Assembly: GCA_020720625.1 (NCBI GenBank)
Contig: DYOH01000029.1
Location: forward strand, 1 to 39,014
DNA: 39,014 nucleotides
Origin: Acetofilamentum sp.
GTDB lineage: Bacteria > Bacteroidota > Bacteroidia > Bacteroidales > DYOH01
Direction: 5' to 3'
Position 1 is the first letter of the stretch, and every line of letters starts with the position of its first letter. A model generated the notes under the pieces. It saw only the letters and a list, made by a program, of their open reading frames with translations. It did no database searches and had not been told where the DNA came from. Of the stretch, positions 6,848 to 33,951 are shown piece by piece. The position numbers and the translations under genes were made by a program.

Positions 6848-7261
6848 ATGAAAAATTTCAAAATTTTAGCATCTTTTTTGCTTATCTTTTTCTTTGCATC
6901 GAATGTATCTTTTGCCGCTGAAAATCTGAATCCGGCACACAATGCCGCAAAATCTGCTGTTGATGTACAACAAATGGCACCGCAAAGTGCGAAACAGATA
7001 ACGCAATCGGAAATAGTTTTAAATCAAAATGTTAAATCCGAAATTCTAAAATCAAATAAAAAAGCAAACAAAAAAATGGCAGATCCTACAAAAACAAATG
7101 TAGAAAAAACCATCCTCTTTATTCTAGCCATTTTTATTCCATTTTTAGCTGTTGGATTACACACAAATTGGGGAATGCCAACTGTTTGGAGTTTACTTTG
7201 GACTTTCCTTGGATTTTGGTTATTGGGAGTAATTCACGCTTTTATTGTTTTGATGAGATAA
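6848..7261 (+). CDS. Secreted-type YqaE/Pmp3-like small membrane protein
   Basis: The 137-residue product starts with a signal peptide (cleavage likely after FAAE-type residues near 24). It continues with a polar, Lys/Gln-rich stretch (about 25-90) and ends in two hydrophobic segments (about 92-110 and 115-135). The C-terminal part, ILAIFIPFLAVGL...GVIHAFIVL, resembles the Pmp3/YqaE (UPF0057) proteolipid family, which consists of two-helix membrane proteins linked to stress and membrane potential. Standard Pmp3 proteins are about 50 residues, so this is an extended form of the kind seen in Bacteroidota. Its role here is unknown. It is a single-gene unit between the gyrA terminator and its own terminator. 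Confidence 0.75.
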   Translation: MKNFKILASFLLIFFFASNVSFAAENLNPAHNAAKSAVDVQQMAPQSAKQITQSEIVLNQNVKSEILKSNKKANKKMADPTKTNVEKTILFILAIFIPFLAVGLHTNWGMPTVWSLLWTFLGFWLLGVIHAFIVLMR

Positions 7262-20562: not shown

Positions 20563-21066
20563 ATGCGGATTTCTTTAATTTCGTTTTTATTAAGTTTGAT
20601 TTTTACGTCGTGCTCGCATAAAGAGCACGACGTAAAAATTACAAATGCACTTGCATTGGATTCTGTTTTCCAAAACTCCTTAGATTCATTGCAACTCATG
20701 GTATCTGAACTTAATAACAAAGATTACAACGAAGCTTATTTCATCATCTTAACAAAATTGCAATACGCTGTATATCAAATAGATAGCTTGGCGGCTGACA
20801 ATTTACACAATCGTGAAGAATTGCTCCAAATAAGGGCTAAGTTGGCAGAATATCGGTTAGTTATTGATCAACAACTGGATGAATGGCGTAATAATACCGA
20901 AATCCCTGATTCTGTATATTCTCCGGATTTAGATAGCAATTATCAGTTTTTCAGCTACTTGGTGTACAAAAAATTTCCGAAGAAATTCGATTCTCTGATA
21001 AATGAAAATAAACATTGGCTCGACTCATTAAAGCAGATGCCAAAAGCAATTAGCGAAAAATTTTAG
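20563..21066 (+). CDS. Small lipoprotein of unknown function
   Basis: The 167-residue product has a lipoprotein signal (MRISLISFLLSLIFTSC, lipid-modified Cys17) followed by a helical, charged region. I recognise no domain; heptad-like runs such as DSLQLMVSELNNKDYNEA and REELLQIRAKLAEYRLVIDQQL suggest coiled coils. It starts six bases after pheT and probably shares its transcript. A perfect 17-bp hairpin covers the lipobox codons and those after it (separate entry). The 3' end overlaps the convergent mtnP by four bases. The envelope location is inferred from the lipobox. Confidence 0.7.
   Translation: MRISLISFLLSLIFTSCSHKEHDVKITNALALDSVFQNSLDSLQLMVSELNNKDYNEAYFIILTKLQYAVYQIDSLAADNLHNREELLQIRAKLAEYRLVIDQQLDEWRNNTEIPDSVYSPDLDSNYQFFSYLVYKKFPKKFDSLINENKHWLDSLKQMPKAISEKF
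20599..20639. repeat. Perfect 17-bp inverted repeat within the lipoprotein gene
   Basis: Bases 20599-20615 are the exact reverse complement of 20623-20639, with a 7-base loop (GCATAAA). The core is ACGTCGTGCTC/GAGCACGACGT. It covers the codons around Cys17 and the following EHDVK. The T-runs are on the 5' side of the stem on both strands, so it is not a classical terminator. Confidence 0.95.
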
Positions 21067-21812
21067 TCTATCTCCTTGATTGTATTAATTAGCAATTGTG
21101 TAACTTTTTGTACGTTCTCATTAAAAACCTTTAATACTTCTTCCCAACTTACTGGCGTTTCGTTTTCTTTCCACGAATCGTAATCTGTGCTCATGGCAAC
21201 TGCTGCATATGGTATTTGGGCTTCGTTGGCCAAAATGCACTCAGGCGCAACAGACATGTTGATGATATCTGCTCCCCAGTTTCTAAACATGTGCGATTCT
21301 GCTTTGGTAGAAAATCGCGGACCTTCTATGGTTATAACTGTTCCGAGTTTGTGAAACCGAATGCCCGCTATGTTACATTGCTTAATTAGCTTCTCTCTAA
21401 GAAAAGCATTAAATGGCTCCGACATTGGGGTATGTTTCATCTCGCCATCTTCAAAAGAATCAAAAAAACTGATGGCTCTATGTCGTGTGAAGTCGATAAA
21501 CTGGTCAATAATTACCAAATCTCCCCTTTGAATTTCTTCTTTTAGCGAACCCACCGCCGTAGTGGCAATAATGTAATCAATACCTAAATCTTTAAACGCC
21601 TGAATATTGGCTCTGTTGTTTACTTGTGTTGGAGGTATTTGGTGTGCTTGTCCGTGGCGGGCAATGATATAAACTTCATGTTTTCCCATCTTGCCTTTTT
21701 TTATTGGGCTGCTGGGTGCGCCGTAGGCTGTTTGTATGTTTAAATGCGCTGTATTCGTTAGAATATCGGGGTTGTTGAGACCGCTACCTCCTATAATCCC
21801 AATTTTTTTCAT
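21063..21812 (-). CDS. mtnP: S-methyl-5'-thioadenosine phosphorylase (PNP/MTAP family)
   Basis: This enzyme splits methylthioadenosine, a by-product of polyamine and autoinducer synthesis, into adenine and methylthioribose-1-phosphate for salvage. The 249 residues show phosphate-binding GGSG (8-11) and ARHGQAHQIPP (51-61), EGPRFSTKAES, the substrate-binding NMSVAPE region and STDYDSWKE, typical of MTAP rather than purine nucleoside phosphorylase. The start is placed at ATG 21812 (MKKIGIIGGSG); an in-frame upstream ATG at 21869 would overlap the neighbouring pseudogene and adds residues not found in the family. It could accept inosine or guanosine as well. Confidence 0.9.
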   Translation of the reverse strand: MKKIGIIGGSGLNNPDILTNTAHLNIQTAYGAPSSPIKKGKMGKHEVYIIARHGQAHQIPPTQVNNRANIQAFKDLGIDYIIATTAVGSLKEEIQRGDLVIIDQFIDFTRHRAISFFDSFEDGEMKHTPMSEPFNAFLREKLIKQCNIAGIRFHKLGTVITIEGPRFSTKAESHMFRNWGADIINMSVAPECILANEAQIPYAAVAMSTDYDSWKENETPVSWEEVLKVFNENVQKVTQLLINTIKEID

Positions 21813-21861: not shown

Positions 21862-23223
21862 CTAGGCAAAATTAACTTTGGTTGTTAGTTTCTTGAGCTG
21901 CTCTGCCTCTGCAAATAAATCATTGGCCGATGCAGCCATTTTCTCCGATTCTTCGGCGTTTTTTAACGTTACCATGCTCAATTCTTGTACCGACAAATTA
22001 ATTGCCTGTACACCAATTTGTTGCTCTTGACTCATAAGTTTTATATTGCTGATTAATTCGGCGCTTTTTTGAATTTCTGGAATTAGCTTCGAAATTCTTT
22101 CTCCGGCGTTTTTCGATATTTCAACTCCTTCTTTCGATAGCTTATCTATAATTTCTGAGGCTGTTTTCGTTTTATCGGCAAGTTTTCTTATTTCTTGCGC
22201 CACCACAGCAAAACCTTGTCCGTGTTCGGCACTCCTTGCTGCTTCAATGGCTGCATTTATCGATAGAATGTCTGTTTTACCTGATATTTCGTTTATGATG
22301 CTCACTTTTTGGGTAATTTCGCTGATGGTAACAATCGTTTTGTCGAAAATTTCACGATTTTGCAAGGTTTCAAAGGCGGTTTGGGTCGAAATTTTTTCGG
22401 TATAGCTGGCGTTTTCGGCTGTTGCTACAATCGAATTGAATATTTCTTCCATTGCTGCTGCAATTTGCTCGGTTGTGGCTGATTGCTCTGTGCTATTTTG
22501 CGAAATAATATTCGATATCCTTGCCAATTTATTGCTGTTTTCGAATAAACGACCCGAACTTTTCTTTATTTGTTCTAATAGTTCACTAAGCAACTTATTT
22601 TGCTGCATTTTTGCTTCTATTTCCTTCTCTATCAAATTCGACGACCGGGCACTAATCAACTTTGAGTACCATACCGTTAAACTCAATATTATCAGCGTTA
22701 TGGTATAATCTATTTGCGAAAGTATAAGATATTTCTGAATACTGGCATCATTACTTAATTTATTTGTACTTACGATAAAAAGGGTGGTAATTAAAACAAG
22801 TACAAAATTGATGATTAAATTTAATCGGGTAGAAAAAAGGAGACCTAAAACTATGATTAACAGCAAAAATTAATATGTTCCGCCTATAAAATTCATATAT
22901 ACCGGAGCACTATAAAGTCGCTGAAGAAGCGATAATATCTGTAGCACCAGCACACCTGTTACCAAAATGTTTCCAGCTAAACTTAATTTTCCGGAGCGAA
23001 GGAGTGCCAAAACACCAAGAACTAAAGCAATCATTATAAATGGAACCAAAGCATGTTCAAAAAAACCTTTTTTTTCTGTATGATTTATATACGAAATAAT
23101 TGTTACAAAAAAAATTAGAATGGCTGAAATTGAGCCTATATAAAATAATGCTTTAGCCCGCTGCTGGGCAATAAATTAGCTTTGCTCATATTTAGAAAAA
23201 TACGCTTGTAAAAATGTTTTCAT
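21862..23223 (-). pseudogene. Methyl-accepting chemotaxis-like protein with two in-frame stops
   Basis: From ATG 23223 one frame runs 453 codons to TAG 21862, broken only by TAA at codon 16 (23176-23178) and codon 118 (22870-22872). The frame is otherwise intact. The N-terminal part encodes several membrane segments (for example ALFYIGSISAILIFFVTII and IMIALVLGVLALL) and continues through [11 protein letters not shown]. The C-terminal part is an MCP signalling domain with the hairpin tip [29 protein letters not shown]. There is no periplasmic sensor domain or HAMP. The part after the second stop could be translated from TTG 22866 as 334 residues, but this would lack the first membrane segments. 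A -7-like element remains upstream. A recent pseudogene is the simplest reading; sequencing error or stop readthrough cannot be excluded. Confidence 0.8.
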
Positions 23224-23396: not shown

Positions 23397-23404
23397 TATT
23401 TTTG
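23397..23404 (+). promoter_or_regulatory. Candidate -7 element of the DUF368-aroE-nth run
   Basis: TATTTTTG matches TAnnTTTG, 18 bases before ATG 23423. It overlaps an upstream in-frame TTG at 23402, which argues against that start. Confidence 0.5.
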
Positions 23405-23422
23405 CTGCAAAATAATGCTTTT

Positions 23423-24346
23423 ATGAGATATTTGATGTTGTTTTTAAAAGGGCTTGCAATGGGGGCAGCAAATGTTATTCCTGGTGTAAGTGGTGGTACA
23501 ATTGCGCTAATTACAGGAATTTTTCACGAACTGATAGATTCAATTAAATCGTTTAACGGGGTAGCTTTAAAATTATTACTTAGTGCTAAGTTTAAGGAAT
23601 TAATTGTTCATATAAATTTATGGTTTTTGATTTCTGTTTTCGGTGGAATTGGGGTTAGTATAATCAGTTTTGCCCGTATTTTTGGGTATCTTTTCGAGTA
23701 CTATCCTGTTTATCTTTGGGCATTTTTCTTTGGCCTTATTCTTATATCTGTTTTTTACGTAGCTAAAACTGTTACGAGCTTTTCAATTACTACTGTTTTG
23801 TTTTTTGTCTTAGGCACTTCTTTTGCTGTGGGAATTACTTTTTTTAATCCGGCTACAGAGAACGATGCGTTTTGGTATCTTATCGTTTGCGGGATTGTGG
23901 CCATGATTAGTATGATACTTCCAGGTCTTTCGGGTTCTTTTGTTCTTATTTTACTCGGAAATTATCAGTTGGTAATGATTGATGCCGTTAATAATTTGTC
24001 GTTAAAAATTCTTATACCGGTGGCTTTGGGTGCCGCAGGGGGTATACTTGCCTTTTCGCATATTCTGTCTTGGATATTAAAGAAATATTATAACCAAACC
24101 ATTGCATTGCTAGCTGGTTTTATTTTAGGCTCCCTTAGTACTATCTGGCCATGGAAAAATGCCATATATATGACTAATGCAGATGGTTCTCAACTCTTAA
24201 AAAGAGGCGAACCGGTAATTCTGACTTATGAAAAGTTTATTCCGGATGCTTTTTCCGGCGAAGTAGTTTTGGCTCTCTTATTTATGGTTTTAGGTGCCGC
24301 AAGCATCATTCTGATTGAATATTTGGCTGAAAAATCAAAAAAATAA
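23423..24346 (+). CDS. DUF368 integral membrane protein
   Basis: The 307-residue product has about eight hydrophobic segments and the signature of the DUF368 family near the N-terminus, GAANVIPGVSGGTIALITG, repeated in diverged form around residue 160-175 (MISMILPGLSGSFVLILLG). This internal duplication of a PGxSGG loop suggests a two-repeat transporter. Related DUF368 proteins have been linked to transport of undecaprenyl phosphate across the membrane; that function here is an inference from family knowledge. Its TAA overlaps the aroE ATG (TAATG), so the two are translationally coupled. Confidence 0.85.
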   Translation: MRYLMLFLKGLAMGAANVIPGVSGGTIALITGIFHELIDSIKSFNGVALKLLLSAKFKELIVHINLWFLISVFGGIGVSIISFARIFGYLFEYYPVYLWAFFFGLILISVFYVAKTVTSFSITTVLFFVLGTSFAVGITFFNPATENDAFWYLIVCGIVAMISMILPGLSGSFVLILLGNYQLVMIDAVNNLSLKILIPVALGAAGGILAFSHILSWILKKYYNQTIALLAGFILGSLSTIWPWKNAIYMTNADGSQLLKRGEPVILTYEKFIPDAFSGEVVLALLFMVLGAASIILIEYLAEKSKK

Positions 24347-27158: not shown

Positions 27159-30095
27159 TTATTTTCTCAGTGCGATTGAATCTCTTAGGTCTCTGATGAA
27201 ATAGCTTAGCTCTGCAAACAAATCGTTGTATAAATTCACATCCATCATATTTTTTATCGTTTTTTCGGAAAGCTGGAGCGCTTTGTAAAGTTCTTTTTTA
27301 CCAGCCAGATGGCGTGCCAGCTTAAAGTCGCTAATCCATTGTATATATGAATTTTGTGGAATTTTTAGTGAGCTTATTATTCCTCTGGCTTTCACTAAAT
27401 ATTCATTAGCCTTTTCTCTATCGCCAAAATCATTGTAGAAGCCAGATAGCATATTGTACAGATTTATTAAGCCAAATTTGTTTTTCGTTTTATGTATTAA
27501 TATATCCTCGGCCTTATGACCGGTTTCTATTGCTTTCGAAATATTTCCTGCTAAAAAATAGCCCGATGCCAATTGAATTATTATACTGGCTTCTATCTGA
27601 ATATTTTTATTGGTCGACTGAAAATACGTATGCAGCGCCCTTAGAGTATAATCGTTAGATTTAATAAACATTCCGGAGCCTGCATAGGCAGAGGCAATTT
27701 CTAAATACAAATTATATATCTTTTCATTATTTTCGGAGTTATTCAAGACGCTTAATGCTATTGAGTAATAATTTACCGCTTTGTCAAATTTTTTTAGATA
27801 TTGATAAATTCCGGCAAGCGCACGATAATAATTGATGATAATATCCTGATTGGCTTCTTCGTATTTGTTTTTCTCAAACTCTATGAGTTTTTTTATATAG
27901 GGAATGGCCATTTCGCGATGATGTGCTGAGGCTGTCAACAAGTCGACCAATCTGGCAAAATATCCGGATAAATAGTTATCGCTTATATTACTGATTCTTT
28001 GTAATATATGAACGGCACGAAACATGGCATTTATTGCAAAACTAAGCTCTCTGTCGGCAGCGGCTGTCATTGCAATAGAGTTATACAAAGCAGCAATTAC
28101 CTTGGGGTCTATTTCTATCGAAAGCTCTCTGCTTATCGAAACAGATTGCTCAAGCATATCGGAAAGTATCCGCGCTTCGTCAAGTTTATTATCGTACAAC
28201 AAATTATCGCAGGTAGTGTAGGCTATTGTCAGCATTTCTTCGTCAAAAAGCAATTCGTTCCAGATTTCTCTTAACTTTTGAAATGCTATAATCGAATGAA
28301 CTTCTTTCTCCTTCACTTTTTCAAGCTTTCGGGTTAGCGCCGAAAGCATATTTAAAAGCCTAATTTCCATAAAACTAGCCTGATTTGAGAAAAATGCCTG
28401 AAATAGTTCGTATGCCTTTAGGATATACTCATAGGCCTTTTCTGTTTGATTCATGCTATCGTAGCTTACCGACATTTTTGTGTAAATAGCTACCAGTCCT
28501 GGATGCTCTTTGGTATAATATTCTATAATTCCGCTCGATTTTTGAAGATAAGTAATGGCTTTTGGATAATCTTCTTTGCTCATATATACCTGGGCAAATA
28601 ACTGATAAAGTTTTGCATTGTCCGGATGATTTTTGCCCAAATTTGATACAAGAATTTTTTCGGCTCTACCTAATAAACTCAGGGCCTCTTCTATTTGCTC
28701 AAGTGCTTCGTAGTTTAAGGCCATATTCGACAGAAGCATGGCCTGGTTTATGGTATCCTTTTGATATACATTATAATTTATCTGGTAAGCTGCTAATAAG
28801 TGCGAATTTGATTTTTCGTATTCCTTATTATCGGAATATAGCATAGCCATATTGTTGTGAAAAAATCCAATAATCGGATGATTCTCAGGGAAAAATTTTT
28901 TCACCTTATTAAACTCGCTATTCATTTCCTTAATAGGTTGCTCATACATCCATTTGTTCAACAATATGGCCACTGAGTGGTATATGGAATTGTCCGGATG
29001 ATTGCTGGTATTTATTTCTGTGGATATTTCCATAGCCTTTTCAATCTCCTCGCGTGCTAACCCATAATTTTCGGATGTTAAATAGGCCGAAGCCAGCGTA
29101 AAATGTAAACTTGCTTTTTCGTTGCTTGGTGTATCGTAATTAAAATTGAATATTTCGAGGGCTGTTAATGAATACTGTATGGCCAGTTCGGTATTTCCTG
29201 CATAATGGAATGCAACGCCCAGAAGTGAATAGCTCTCGGCCAAATATAAGTGCAATTTATCCAGATAACTTAATTGATTTTCTATAACTGTTTGAAGTAT
29301 TTCAATGGATTTCTCGGGTTCATTTAAATCTATTAATATATTGGCGTAACCAAAAAGCATGCGGTCAGAATCTATTTGTGCGGCCTCTTTCTCTTTTAAA
29401 AGCTGATTGCCCTCCTGCAAATAATCCATCGACTCCGACTGACGGGCATTTAGACGCAGCAAAATAAAAAAATACTGGTAGAACTGACTTATGATACTTG
29501 TTTTGCTGCATTTTTTTAAATAAGGCATCGTGCTTTTTAATAAGGCCAAAGACTCTGCATATTTTGCTTTATGCTTTAACTGAACAGCTTTTGCCTGATT
29601 TATGATTAATGTAAATGTTTCGCTCTTTTTATCTGAATAATATTTTTTTAATGTTTGGTCCCCTTTTTTGTATTTTCCTGTTCTGTAGAGATATAATATT
29701 GTGTCGTTTAATAGTTCGGTTTCATTTATATTCCATTCCGGATTAAATAATTTAAAATAGTTTAAGGCCATATCGGCAAACATGGCTTTATGTATTATTA
29801 AGTGATTGCTGCTAAAATGTATATGCGATTGCAGAAAACTTAAATATTCCTGAATTTCATTTTGCAAGTTTTGGTTTAAATATTTTATAGCTGACGAATT
29901 GAGCTTTATTGAACTGTACTTCTTGCTTTTTTTTAAAATAAGTTTCTTTTTGGAAAGGCTATGCAAATTTTTATAAAACTCTTTTTCATCTGATATTCGC
30001 AAAATAACAATCAGGTCTTCGGCCAGAAAAAAATTACTTGGCAGAAGCTGAAATTTTGTGAGCAAATACAATTCATTTTGCGATAATTCTTCCAT
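27159..30095 (-). CDS. Winged-helix/TPR protein resembling a STAND protein without its NTPase
   Basis: The 978-residue product starts with a region (about 5-75: LTKFQLLPSNFFLAEDLIVI...NLHSLSKKKLILKK) that resembles the winged helix following NB-ARC in STAND NTPases. The remainder is a long TPR array (about 130-960). The central repeats are of the kinesin-light-chain type with the HP spacing motif (for example NHPDNAKLYQLFAQVY and EHPGLVAIYTKMSVSY). No Walker A or B motif, signal peptide or membrane segment is visible, so it is a cytoplasmic protein with a scaffold or sensor-like architecture. It lies 73 bases downstream of the sensor kinase on the same strand and also has a -7-like element of its own. 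A regulatory partnership is plausible but unproven. Confidence 0.72.
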   Translation of the reverse strand: MEELSQNELYLLTKFQLLPSNFFLAEDLIVILRISDEKEFYKNLHSLSKKKLILKKSKKYSSIKLNSSAIKYLNQNLQNEIQEYLSFLQSHIHFSSNHLIIHKAMFADMALNYFKLFNPEWNINETELLNDTILYLYRTGKYKKGDQTLKKYYSDKKSETFTLIINQAKAVQLKHKAKYAESLALLKSTMPYLKKCSKTSIISQFYQYFFILLRLNARQSESMDYLQEGNQLLKEKEAAQIDSDRMLFGYANILIDLNEPEKSIEILQTVIENQLSYLDKLHLYLAESYSLLGVAFHYAGNTELAIQYSLTALEIFNFNYDTPSNEKASLHFTLASAYLTSENYGLAREEIEKAMEISTEINTSNHPDNSIYHSVAILLNKWMYEQPIKEMNSEFNKVKKFFPENHPIIGFFHNNMAMLYSDNKEYEKSNSHLLAAYQINYNVYQKDTINQAMLLSNMALNYEALEQIEEALSLLGRAEKILVSNLGKNHPDNAKLYQLFAQVYMSKEDYPKAITYLQKSSGIIEYYTKEHPGLVAIYTKMSVSYDSMNQTEKAYEYILKAYELFQAFFSNQASFMEIRLLNMLSALTRKLEKVKEKEVHSIIAFQKLREIWNELLFDEEMLTIAYTTCDNLLYDNKLDEARILSDMLEQSVSISRELSIEIDPKVIAALYNSIAMTAAADRELSFAINAMFRAVHILQRISNISDNYLSGYFARLVDLLTASAHHREMAIPYIKKLIEFEKNKYEEANQDIIINYYRALAGIYQYLKKFDKAVNYYSIALSVLNNSENNEKIYNLYLEIASAYAGSGMFIKSNDYTLRALHTYFQSTNKNIQIEASIIIQLASGYFLAGNISKAIETGHKAEDILIHKTKNKFGLINLYNMLSGFYNDFGDREKANEYLVKARGIISSLKIPQNSYIQWISDFKLARHLAGKKELYKALQLSEKTIKNMMDVNLYNDLFAELSYFIRDLRDSIALRK

Positions 30096-30168: not shown

Positions 30169-33100
30169 CTAATGTGAGAAATTTTCAACAAGCTCGAATT
30201 CTATTATAAAGTTGGCTCCTTTGCCGGCTTCACTTTCACACCAGATTTTTCCATCCATATCGTCGATATATTTTTTTACAATCGACAAGCCAAGTCCACT
30301 TGATGCTTCGTTTCCGGTGGGTTGAGCGCTAAAAATACGGAAATTTTTAAACAGCTCTTTTAATTCATCTGCTGTAAATCCTTGTCCTTGGTCTTTTATC
30401 GATATTCTTAAACTTTCGTCGATAATTTCTTCGCGAATAGTGATGGTGGTATTGGCTGGTGAGAATTTTAAAGCATTAGAAATCAGGTTATCAAAAACTT
30501 GCGACAAAAATGCGGTATCTGCGTAAATATACTGTTTTTGGCGTAATGGTATAAATTCAAACTCAATTTTTTTACTCTCGGCTCTCTTTTGGTATTGATG
30601 TATAAGATCGATTAGCAGTGGTGTGGCTTGTACCGGTTCTATTGTAATGTTTTGCTTTTTCTCTTCAATGGCTTTTACGTCTAAAATCTTGCCTATCATT
30701 TCATTCATGCGCCATAGTGCACTTTTTAAATAGTCAAACTGCTTTATGCCGTTTTCGCTGATTCCTTTTTCTGTTTTGTTCAGTATCTCTATTGATGTTA
30801 ATCCGGCAGTTAATGGATTTCTTAAGTCGTGCGCTACAATTCGTATTAATTTGTTTTTCTCTTCATTCAAATTTTTAAGCTCTTCGTTTTGCTTTTCTAT
30901 CTGTTTATTTTTTTCTTTGATAAAATTATTGGCCGTTTCCAAATTCTCTGTTTTATCTTGCAATTGCTCGTAGGTTTCTGCATTCACCAGGGCTATTCCT
31001 GTGTATATGGCAATATTTCTAATCAGATTTAAATGATAATCGTCGTAGGCGTATTTTTTATAGCTCTGTACTGTAATTATGCCTATTTTTCTGTCGGCAA
31101 TGGTAAGCGGAACATAAAACAAGGACGATGGAATTTGCTGTGTAACCAATTTTGTTGGCGAATCTCCGTACTTTAGGTAATCGGTTTCAAAATCGTTGAT
31201 AAATATCTCCTCGTTATCAAGCAAGCATTTTACAGCTAACTTTTCTGTTTCTTTTATGGATAATTGTATGGTAGGGAGAACTTTCCCTTTCTCTTTTGCT
31301 GAAATAAACTCTAGCGAGAGGATATCTTTTTTATAAATTCCAATTCCAAAGATACTTGCATCTAATAAAGTATTGATGTTTTCATATACTTTATCAATAA
31401 TGGTTTGTATAGAGAGGCTATAGCTTATGTCTTTTCCTATTTCGTTCAGCAGCGCCAAATCACTATAAGATTCTTTTAATCTTTCTACTGTTTTGCTTAT
31501 TCGTTGCTTCTGCCTTTCTAATATTTTGTTTTGGGTCAGAATTTCGGCATTCTGCTGCATTATTTCTTTCGTCTTTAACCTAATCAATAGTTCCAGGTCT
31601 TCTTTGTTTCTTTTTAATCCTCTTAATCTTAGTACTACAAATATCGTAATTATTAAAATAAGCGAGAAAATAAGGATTAACCTGAATATGGTCGATTTCC
31701 ATAGCGGTTCTACTATTTCAAAGCTATAGCTTATTTCGTCGCTCCAATTATTCTGATTATTGACTGCTTTGGCTTTAAAAGTGTATTTTCCTGGGGCTAA
31801 ACTATTAAATGAAATAATATTTTGTGTAGTTATTGGCGACCACTGTTGTTCGAGACCTTCCAGAAACCAACTAAATTTTAAATCATTAGGATGATTAAAA
31901 TCTGTCGCATTTAGCGTAAAGCTAATATAATTTAAGTTGAATGGCAACTTTGGTGTTTCTGGTAATTGAATCCATGGAATAATATTAGAATAATAATTTT
32001 TGTATGGTTCTGTGTGCCAGTCGATATCCTTTAAAAAAAGCTTCATCTCGCTGATATGCACGGTGGGTTTTGATGTGGTTAAATGCTCTTCAACGCCCGA
32101 TATGGCTACTGCTCCGTAAATTGTTCCAAACCAATGACGGTTCTTACTGTCTATAAAAACGGCATTACCATTACATTCGAGATTGGAGTTATTTCCCATC
32201 CAAACTCTCTCTTGCTTAATTTGTTTTCCGCTAATGCTGTATTTAAAAATGCCTTGCTGCCGGCCAAGCCATAGCTTGTTCTCGTGGTCTATTTTTATAC
32301 TGTAGCTCAAAAACTCATTGGATTGACTTACATTTTCTATTGGAATAATTTTTCCCTTTTCGTTATATTGAAATAAACCTTGCGAAAAACTGGTAATCCA
32401 GATATGATGATTCCGATCTTCGGTAATTTGTATGGCATTTATATCATAGTTTTCGTTTTCGGCAGATACGGAATAAATGCTATCCTTTAAAATATAGTTA
32501 ATTCCATTGGGTGAGCAAATCCATACCCTGCTCTGAGAATCGGCAAAAACACTATTTACCAGATTACTTTTTAATCCATTTTGTTTGGTAAAATGATGTA
32601 GTTTTCCTCCATGATGATAATGTATACCACCCAAATTGGTGATTATCCATAGAGTATCGCCTTGTGCTAAAAGGGATGGAGCTGAAATATTCGCATTTAG
32701 GCCAAATTTCTTATTTACATTCACAAATGTTTCGTTTTGCAGTTCCAGAATTCCACCTCTTGTGCCGGCATAAAGAGAATTCTTGTATTCAATTATGGAA
32801 TGAACCTGATTCTCAGCAGTATTAATATTGTTGAAATGGTTAAGTATTATGTTCTTATCGAAATCAAGTGCACTTATTCCACCTCCTTCGGTTGCTATCC
32901 ATATTTGGTTGTCGAACTCTGCAAAATGTCTGACTATATTGGATTTTAAACCATCGTTCTCGGTGTATCTCACCATTTCATTTCCGCAAAATTTTAATAA
33001 ACCGGCTCCTTGCGTACCTATCCAAATGTTGCCGCTATTGTCCGATTCCAGTGAGAGTATATTGTTAACCGGCAATCCATTTATTTTACTTATATTTTTG

Positions 33101-33951
33101 GTTGTTTCTCCATTGTAATGTGCTAATCCTTCTCTGGTTGCAAACCAATAATTTCCCTGTTTGTCTTTTTTTATTCCGGCAAAAATCAGAGGGTCGGAAA
33201 GTGTGGGTATTTGCTCTATTTTTTCCGAAGTTTTCATCAGTAATACAGCACTTCTGGCATTTTCTGGTAAGAGGGCATATATAATAGTATCGCTAAATCG
33301 AGCCATGGGAAGCGTAAAGCTATAGTTCTCGAAGTTCTTGAATTTGATTCTTAACAATTTGGGTTTATCTGTAAACTGATATAATCCGTTTTGGGTTGTT
33401 AAATACAATACTTTGTCAATGGTATCGGCAAACACATGCAAAATGGTAAGTGCTTTTATTTCAGGAAATTCATTCTCAAGGGGAACTAAGCTGTCGCCCT
33501 TAATTTTGAGCAAATACGATTGGCACTGATCTGTTCTTCCAAAAAGCAGCATATCGCCGTTATAAGGATTTTCAACTATTCCACTGTTTATGCCATTGAT
33601 GTAGCCTTGTTCTTTAATATAATTCTTAATTTTTAGTCCGTCGTAAACGGCAAGTGTATTTTTACCCGCAATATAAACTGTTCCATTTTGCGATTTATAG
33701 ATGCTTAATATTTCCTTATCCACATATCCGGCAGGAAAATTTACATTTTTAAACTTTTTACCATCAAATTCGGCTATTCCGCCACCATTTGTGCCTACCC
33801 ACAAGGTAGATAACTTGGTTTGAATTATTTTTATTACCTCTGATTGGGGCAATCCTTCGTTTAGACTATAAGCCTGAAAACAATGCTGCTGTGCACTTAA
33901 TTTGACAAAAATTAAGGTTATGATTACAAATATGGAGGCAATCTGTTTCAA
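30169..33951 (-). CDS. Orphan sensor histidine kinase with beta-propeller, Y_Y_Y and GAF domains
   Basis: The 1260-residue product has a signal peptide (1-20), about 600 residues of propeller repeats (motifs such as GNIWIGTQGAGL, NQIWIATEGGGIS), a Y_Y_Y domain (about 676-748), one membrane helix (about 755-775), a coiled coil, a GAF domain (about 845-990), HisKA with phospho-accepting His1041 (IVAHDLRNPLT) and a HATPase (N box DNLISNALKFSP at 1154-1165, DQGQGF 1187-1192, SSGLGLSIV 1218-1226). It resembles periplasmic sensors of hybrid two-component systems, but lacks the receiver and AraC-type domains and instead has GAF. The start is TTG: no in-frame ATG occurs before the signal peptide, which begins right at this codon. 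No response regulator is encoded nearby. Confidence 0.9.
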   Translation of the reverse strand: MKQIASIFVIITLIFVKLSAQQHCFQAYSLNEGLPQSEVIKIIQTKLSTLWVGTNGGGIAEFDGKKFKNVNFPAGYVDKEILSIYKSQNGTVYIAGKNTLAVYDGLKIKNYIKEQGYINGINSGIVENPYNGDMLLFGRTDQCQSYLLKIKGDSLVPLENEFPEIKALTILHVFADTIDKVLYLTTQNGLYQFTDKPKLLRIKFKNFENYSFTLPMARFSDTIIYALLPENARSAVLLMKTSEKIEQIPTLSDPLIFAGIKKDKQGNYWFATREGLAHYNGETTKNISKINGLPVNNILSLESDNSGNIWIGTQGAGLLKFCGNEMVRYTENDGLKSNIVRHFAEFDNQIWIATEGGGISALDFDKNIILNHFNNINTAENQVHSIIEYKNSLYAGTRGGILELQNETFVNVNKKFGLNANISAPSLLAQGDTLWIITNLGGIHYHHGGKLHHFTKQNGLKSNLVNSVFADSQSRVWICSPNGINYILKDSIYSVSAENENYDINAIQITEDRNHHIWITSFSQGLFQYNEKGKIIPIENVSQSNEFLSYSIKIDHENKLWLGRQQGIFKYSISGKQIKQERVWMGNNSNLECNGNAVFIDSKNRHWFGTIYGAVAISGVEEHLTTSKPTVHISEMKLFLKDIDWHTEPYKNYYSNIIPWIQLPETPKLPFNLNYISFTLNATDFNHPNDLKFSWFLEGLEQQWSPITTQNIISFNSLAPGKYTFKAKAVNNQNNWSDEISYSFEIVEPLWKSTIFRLILIFSLILIITIFVVLRLRGLKRNKEDLELLIRLKTKEIMQQNAEILTQNKILERQKQRISKTVERLKESYSDLALLNEIGKDISYSLSIQTIIDKVYENINTLLDASIFGIGIYKKDILSLEFISAKEKGKVLPTIQLSIKETEKLAVKCLLDNEEIFINDFETDYLKYGDSPTKLVTQQIPSSLFYVPLTIADRKIGIITVQSYKKYAYDDYHLNLIRNIAIYTGIALVNAETYEQLQDKTENLETANNFIKEKNKQIEKQNEELKNLNEEKNKLIRIVAHDLRNPLTAGLTSIEILNKTEKGISENGIKQFDYLKSALWRMNEMIGKILDVKAIEEKKQNITIEPVQATPLLIDLIHQYQKRAESKKIEFEFIPLRQKQYIYADTAFLSQVFDNLISNALKFSPANTTITIREEIIDESLRISIKDQGQGFTADELKELFKNFRIFSAQPTGNEASSGLGLSIVKKYIDDMDGKIWCESEAGKGANFIIEFELVENFSH

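Follow-up and report, generated by a model that had tools for sequence, protein, structure and literature searches.

Two in-frame TAA codons in a membrane-anchored chemoreceptor gene of Acetofilamentum sp.: a probable young pseudogene in a large receptor set

Introduction

The window analysed here, a stretch of 39,014 nucleotides at positions 1 to 39,014 of contig DYOH01000029.1 of Acetofilamentum sp., contains a chemoreceptor (MCP) gene whose reading frame is interrupted twice by TAA. The locus raises the question of whether a receptor has been lost, whether the two stops are errors or are read through, or whether part of the protein is still made. The features discussed are collected in Table 1.

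Table 1. Positions in the window of the interrupted chemoreceptor gene, its parts and its downstream neighbour
Feature	Position	Strand	Remarks
Interrupted MCP gene	21862..23223	minus	453 codons + TAG, two in-frame TAA; from translation, stop positions and MCPsignal match
In-frame TAA, codon 16	23176..23178	minus	Precedes first hydrophobic segment; position variable in the family
In-frame TAA, codon 118	22870..22872	minus	At or beside a nearly invariant Tyr/Phe, where a hydrophobic segment begins
Membrane region, about six hydrophobic segments	22648..23160	minus	Codons 22 to 192, Kyte-Doolittle windows
MCP signalling domain, PF00015 match	21970..22380	minus	Codons 282-418
Open C-terminal frame, 334 aa	21862..22866	minus	From TTG codon 120; hydrophobic segments still inside
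In-frame ATG, codon 206	22606..22608	minus	Candidate restart for a soluble signalling half
S-methyl-5'-thioadenosine phosphorylase (MTAP), downstream neighbour	21063..21812	minus	Open; NCBIfam TIGR01694, 281.9 bits against a cut-off of 274.85

The interrupted frame and its product

The gene reads from an ATG at 23223 to a TAG at 21864..21862, and translation and the stop positions bear out an earlier description of a frame that TAA interrupts at codons 16 and 118 and nowhere else, so that an open frame for a whole receptor is lacking. The remaining five frames of 21862-23223 contain 12 to 47 stops each (plus-strand frame 1 has 31 in 454 codons), which places a frame with two stops far from chance. 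Nonsense inactivation with no frameshift, as had been proposed, is also supported; that this frame is on the minus strand was missing from the earlier note.

An inserted triplet at the second stop was first suggested by the distance from the conserved Tyr/Phe to a conserved Asn, which is 21 steps in all 16 relatives and 22 in the window gene. The spacing upstream of the Tyr/Phe varies, however, from 32 to 34 across the 15 full-length relatives, and one of these, G249b, has the same total spacing as the window gene, so that the TAA at codon 118 may be an inserted codon or may equally occupy the conserved Tyr position itself.

It had also been claimed that the membrane segments and the signalling domain are retained, and both hydropathy and the Pfam search agree. 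The hydrophobic segments of codons 22 to about 192, which score strongly and whose number of about six is a reading of overlapping windows, align with those of stop-free relatives, and the open C-terminal part matches Pfam MCPsignal with an E value of 3e-24 (86.2 bits against a curated cut-off of 34.6). The hairpin tip is kept, with agreement at all 15 positions in codons 310-348 that are invariant in 12 or 13 of 13 relatives; in MCPs this tip makes the contact with CheA and CheW. A PDB search with the protein returned known MCP signalling domains only. The gene thus resembles PF00015 receptors of the membrane-anchored type that have no recognised sensor domain, sharing their signalling domain and hairpin tip, and stop-free members of that family have the same length and build. 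It differs from them in its two in-frame stops; a Pfam scan found no HAMP or sensor domain in the window protein, and the same absence was found in an intact relative (L064). The ancestral product would have been a membrane receptor with about six hydrophobic segments and a cytoplasmic hairpin pairing with CheA and CheW. Translation would now end after 15 residues, and any restart between the stops would end at codon 118.

Genetic code and readthrough

Reading of TAA as sense at this locus, by a suppressor tRNA or by recoding, has as its only support that the frame stays open beyond each stop. Of the 39 open reading frames of 100 aa or more in the window, 23 were taken as genes, and these end in TAA (17), TAG (6) and never TGA. 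No TTA anticodon, which would read TAA, was present among 37 tRNA matches from the organism's own genome (98.5% complete), obtained from the 150 of 286 first-look candidates that were scored; the anticodons were read by ARAGORN, 34 from the loci with their neighbours and three separately. Inside the genome's other MCP matches there is no stop. Code change or readthrough at TAA was rejected on the TAA ends and on the lack of that anticodon among the tRNA matches, a search of a scope that may have let a tRNA slip through, in accord with the earlier view that reassignment is unlikely, and readthrough confined to this gene is exceedingly improbable.

The absence of TGA from the ends looks like a stop-codon preference and not a code change. 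When table 4 was used for translation 20 of the 23 frames were the same, those at 23402 and 36000 gained an N-terminal extension and that at 6848 fell under the list size. The sole tRNA-Trp seen has the anticodon CCA.

Relatives across the order

Homologues were sought in 393 genomes from the order, and nine of these, including the window's own, matched with an E value of 1e-55 or lower. Outside the own genome the best match, in G085, reaches 41% over codons 7-448; G249, G259 and G018 come next, and the open frames of these relatives are 450 to 464 aa long. Among the matches listed, eight span at least codons 35-446 at 32-41% identity and are stop-free, four of them in G085, two in G249 and one each in G259 and G018. 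None of the 15 aligned full-length homologues has an internal stop, so that by comparison with them the window gene carries a disabling lesion. A scan of genome contigs gave four distant relatives at 33-37% identity, and no close orthologue was found either there or in the 393 genomes.

In a FastTree phylogeny the window gene clusters with the relatives from G085, G249, G259 and G018 and with G249b, apart from six paralogues of its own genome (support 0.968), and its placement inside the cluster has almost no support (0.011). Its terminal branch of 0.87 is long, yet not exceptional beside the others, which run from 0.10 to 1.23. The nearest genomes, G001 (same genus, 78% complete) and G002 (same family), yielded no counterpart that scored comparably; the best match in G001 is a 636-aa frame that matches from residue 130 on at 44%, and G002 has a full-length match at 30%.

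The neighbourhood was also compared by position. MTAP has close homologues in G001 (66%) and G002 (64%). In G002 neither of the two open reading frames upstream of it is an MCP, as read from their translations, and the G001 contig begins within MTAP. On the other side of the broken gene, at 23402-24346, is a VCA0040-like (PF04018) gene with no match in G001, G002 or G018, and the stretch around it may be a lineage-specific arrangement. Further along, on the minus strand, are a 978-aa TPR-like protein (27159-30095) and a 1260-aa sensor histidine kinase (30169-33951), each matched under its NCBIfam cut-off.

State of the gene and age of the loss

The extent of decay was judged from conserved columns and from codon preference. 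The 15 other full-length sequences agree, with one exception at most, at 24 columns, a truncated sequence from G322 being excluded, and the window gene has mismatches at two of these; when those 15 were taken in turn the same test gave 0 to 6 mismatches at 23 to 28 columns. The departing codons are 248 and 253, the latter a change from Glu to Gln in the region of the usual MCP methylation sites, where both residues are normal. Codon preference runs in the MCP frame on either side of codon 118, and the stretch between the stops (codons 17-117) scores 0.167, within the range of genes, 66 of 187 segments scoring lower (segments of 101 codons from the 23 frames taken as genes). With no excess of odd residues and a normal codon preference, there is no sign of decay apart from the two stops. 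This counts against a pseudogene; a receptor that selection still maintains through its C-terminal half would look alike.

The loss had been called very recent. Of the 4059 possible single-base changes in the MCP frame 205 (5.05%) make a stop, and two nonsense changes are therefore compatible with anything from about 10 to 120 neutral substitutions in the gene (~0.7 to 9%; tail probabilities of 0.09 and 0.06). The loss does look young, but a range of that width does not carry the word very.

Receptor set and chemotaxis genes of the genome

The genome has 19 MCPsignal matches, among which the window gene is the only one with internal stops when its whole protein is used as query; judged by frame length, the remaining 18 are open, at 445-686 aa. 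Six paralogues with the same build (open frames of 445-462 aa, 24-28% identity) are more distant from the window gene than are its relatives in the order.

These 18 bear on the possibility that both TAA codons are consensus errors or reflect a mixture of strains, the organism's gene being intact. The assembly is a draft in 143 contigs, probably a metagenome bin, and the frame looks functional apart from the stops, both of which would suit such an error. Against this, two separate errors some 300 bases apart would both have had to give TAA, and the remaining receptors of the same assembly are in long open frames, so an error of assembly is unlikely.

The earlier note had read the stops as pointing to fading chemotaxis or contact signalling and had advised a search for cheA and cheW. 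That search was answered by contig C81, where genes for a response regulator, CheA, CheW, an MCP with HAMP and zinc-binding domains, CheW and CheR are consecutive and all in open frames. CheW-domain matches number seven, three of them in long frames, and the two of these three that were scanned are CheA, with Hpt, dimerisation, ATPase and CheW domains; the second CheA is on contig C10. Decay of chemotaxis across the genome was rejected on these core genes and on the 18 open receptor frames, and the suggestion of fading is not supported.

A GldJ-like match at first looked like another gene interrupted by TAA, but this TAA is its own terminal stop; the lipoprotein is whole at 501 aa and scores 432.8 bits, under the GldJ cut-off of 458.2. 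Together with the genome's relatives, this gene points to a probable member of the Bacteroidota. PilT had no match in the genome.

Possible restarts downstream of the stops

It had been proposed that the C-terminal half persists as a soluble or partly anchored product from the TTG at 22866. By hydropathy such a product would retain the final two or three of the hydrophobic segments, so that it would not be soluble; for a soluble signalling half, translation would have to begin further on, for instance at the ATG of codon 206. In a split or restarted receptor a shortened MCP made from one of these two codons would join the receptor arrays. The C-terminal 335 codons are indeed open with the signalling domain well kept, the ATG at codon 206 has an A-rich leader, and the interrupted tlp7 of Campylobacter jejuni is reported to function in the form of two separate proteins (PMC3461409). 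A young pseudogene would, however, also be expected to look well kept, none of the 15 aligned full-length relatives is split, and with the first stop after 15 residues the sensor half would be made only if translation restarted twice. A restarted receptor is thus quite unlikely, and it is very unlikely that the C-terminal part is still made and modulates the array as an MCP without a sensor. If that were true, the stops would have altered the receptor instead of killing it.

Interrupted chemoreceptors elsewhere

Among the MCP matches listed for the order (of 205) at least three have internal stops, namely the window gene, G018:C548 and G031:C50. The last has a TAG and, by eye, apparent frame changes. 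G018:C548 was tried as a clear pseudogene and set aside; by eye, its five stops precede an open signalling domain, close to where the contig ends. Another case, G071:C237 (L106), is like the window gene in that TAA interrupts an MCP frame that is open elsewhere, and differs from it in being a longer receptor with one stop instead of two and with that stop inside the signalling domain. At least two further genomes of the order therefore contain broken receptors. Downstream of the broken gene in G071:C237 a run of short repeated units was seen by eye in the translations, perhaps an intergenic tandem repeat.

Of the 31 strains that carry tlp7, 23 are reported to have it whole and 8 to have it interrupted (PMC3461409), and it is described as two genes in NCTC11168 (Cj0951c/Cj0952c) and one in 81-176 (PMC4444964). 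The likeness is that in both cases an in-frame stop splits an MCP gene whose remainder is preserved. The difference is that tlp7 yields its periplasmic and cytoplasmic parts as separate proteins, whereas in the window gene the stop after 15 residues also removes the membrane half, which makes a two-protein function of the Tlp7 kind less likely. Were the C-terminal half made and used, the gene would join Tlp7, for which this is reported, among the chemoreceptors that work despite an interrupting stop.

Conclusions

Judged from sequence comparison, the window gene is most probably a young pseudogene that once encoded a membrane-anchored chemoreceptor, one of a large set. We infer loss of function of this receptor, and the loss of one would be tolerable because of redundancy among about 19. 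As a young pseudogene it would represent ordinary gene loss in a large chemoreceptor family, caught early and of little significance alone.
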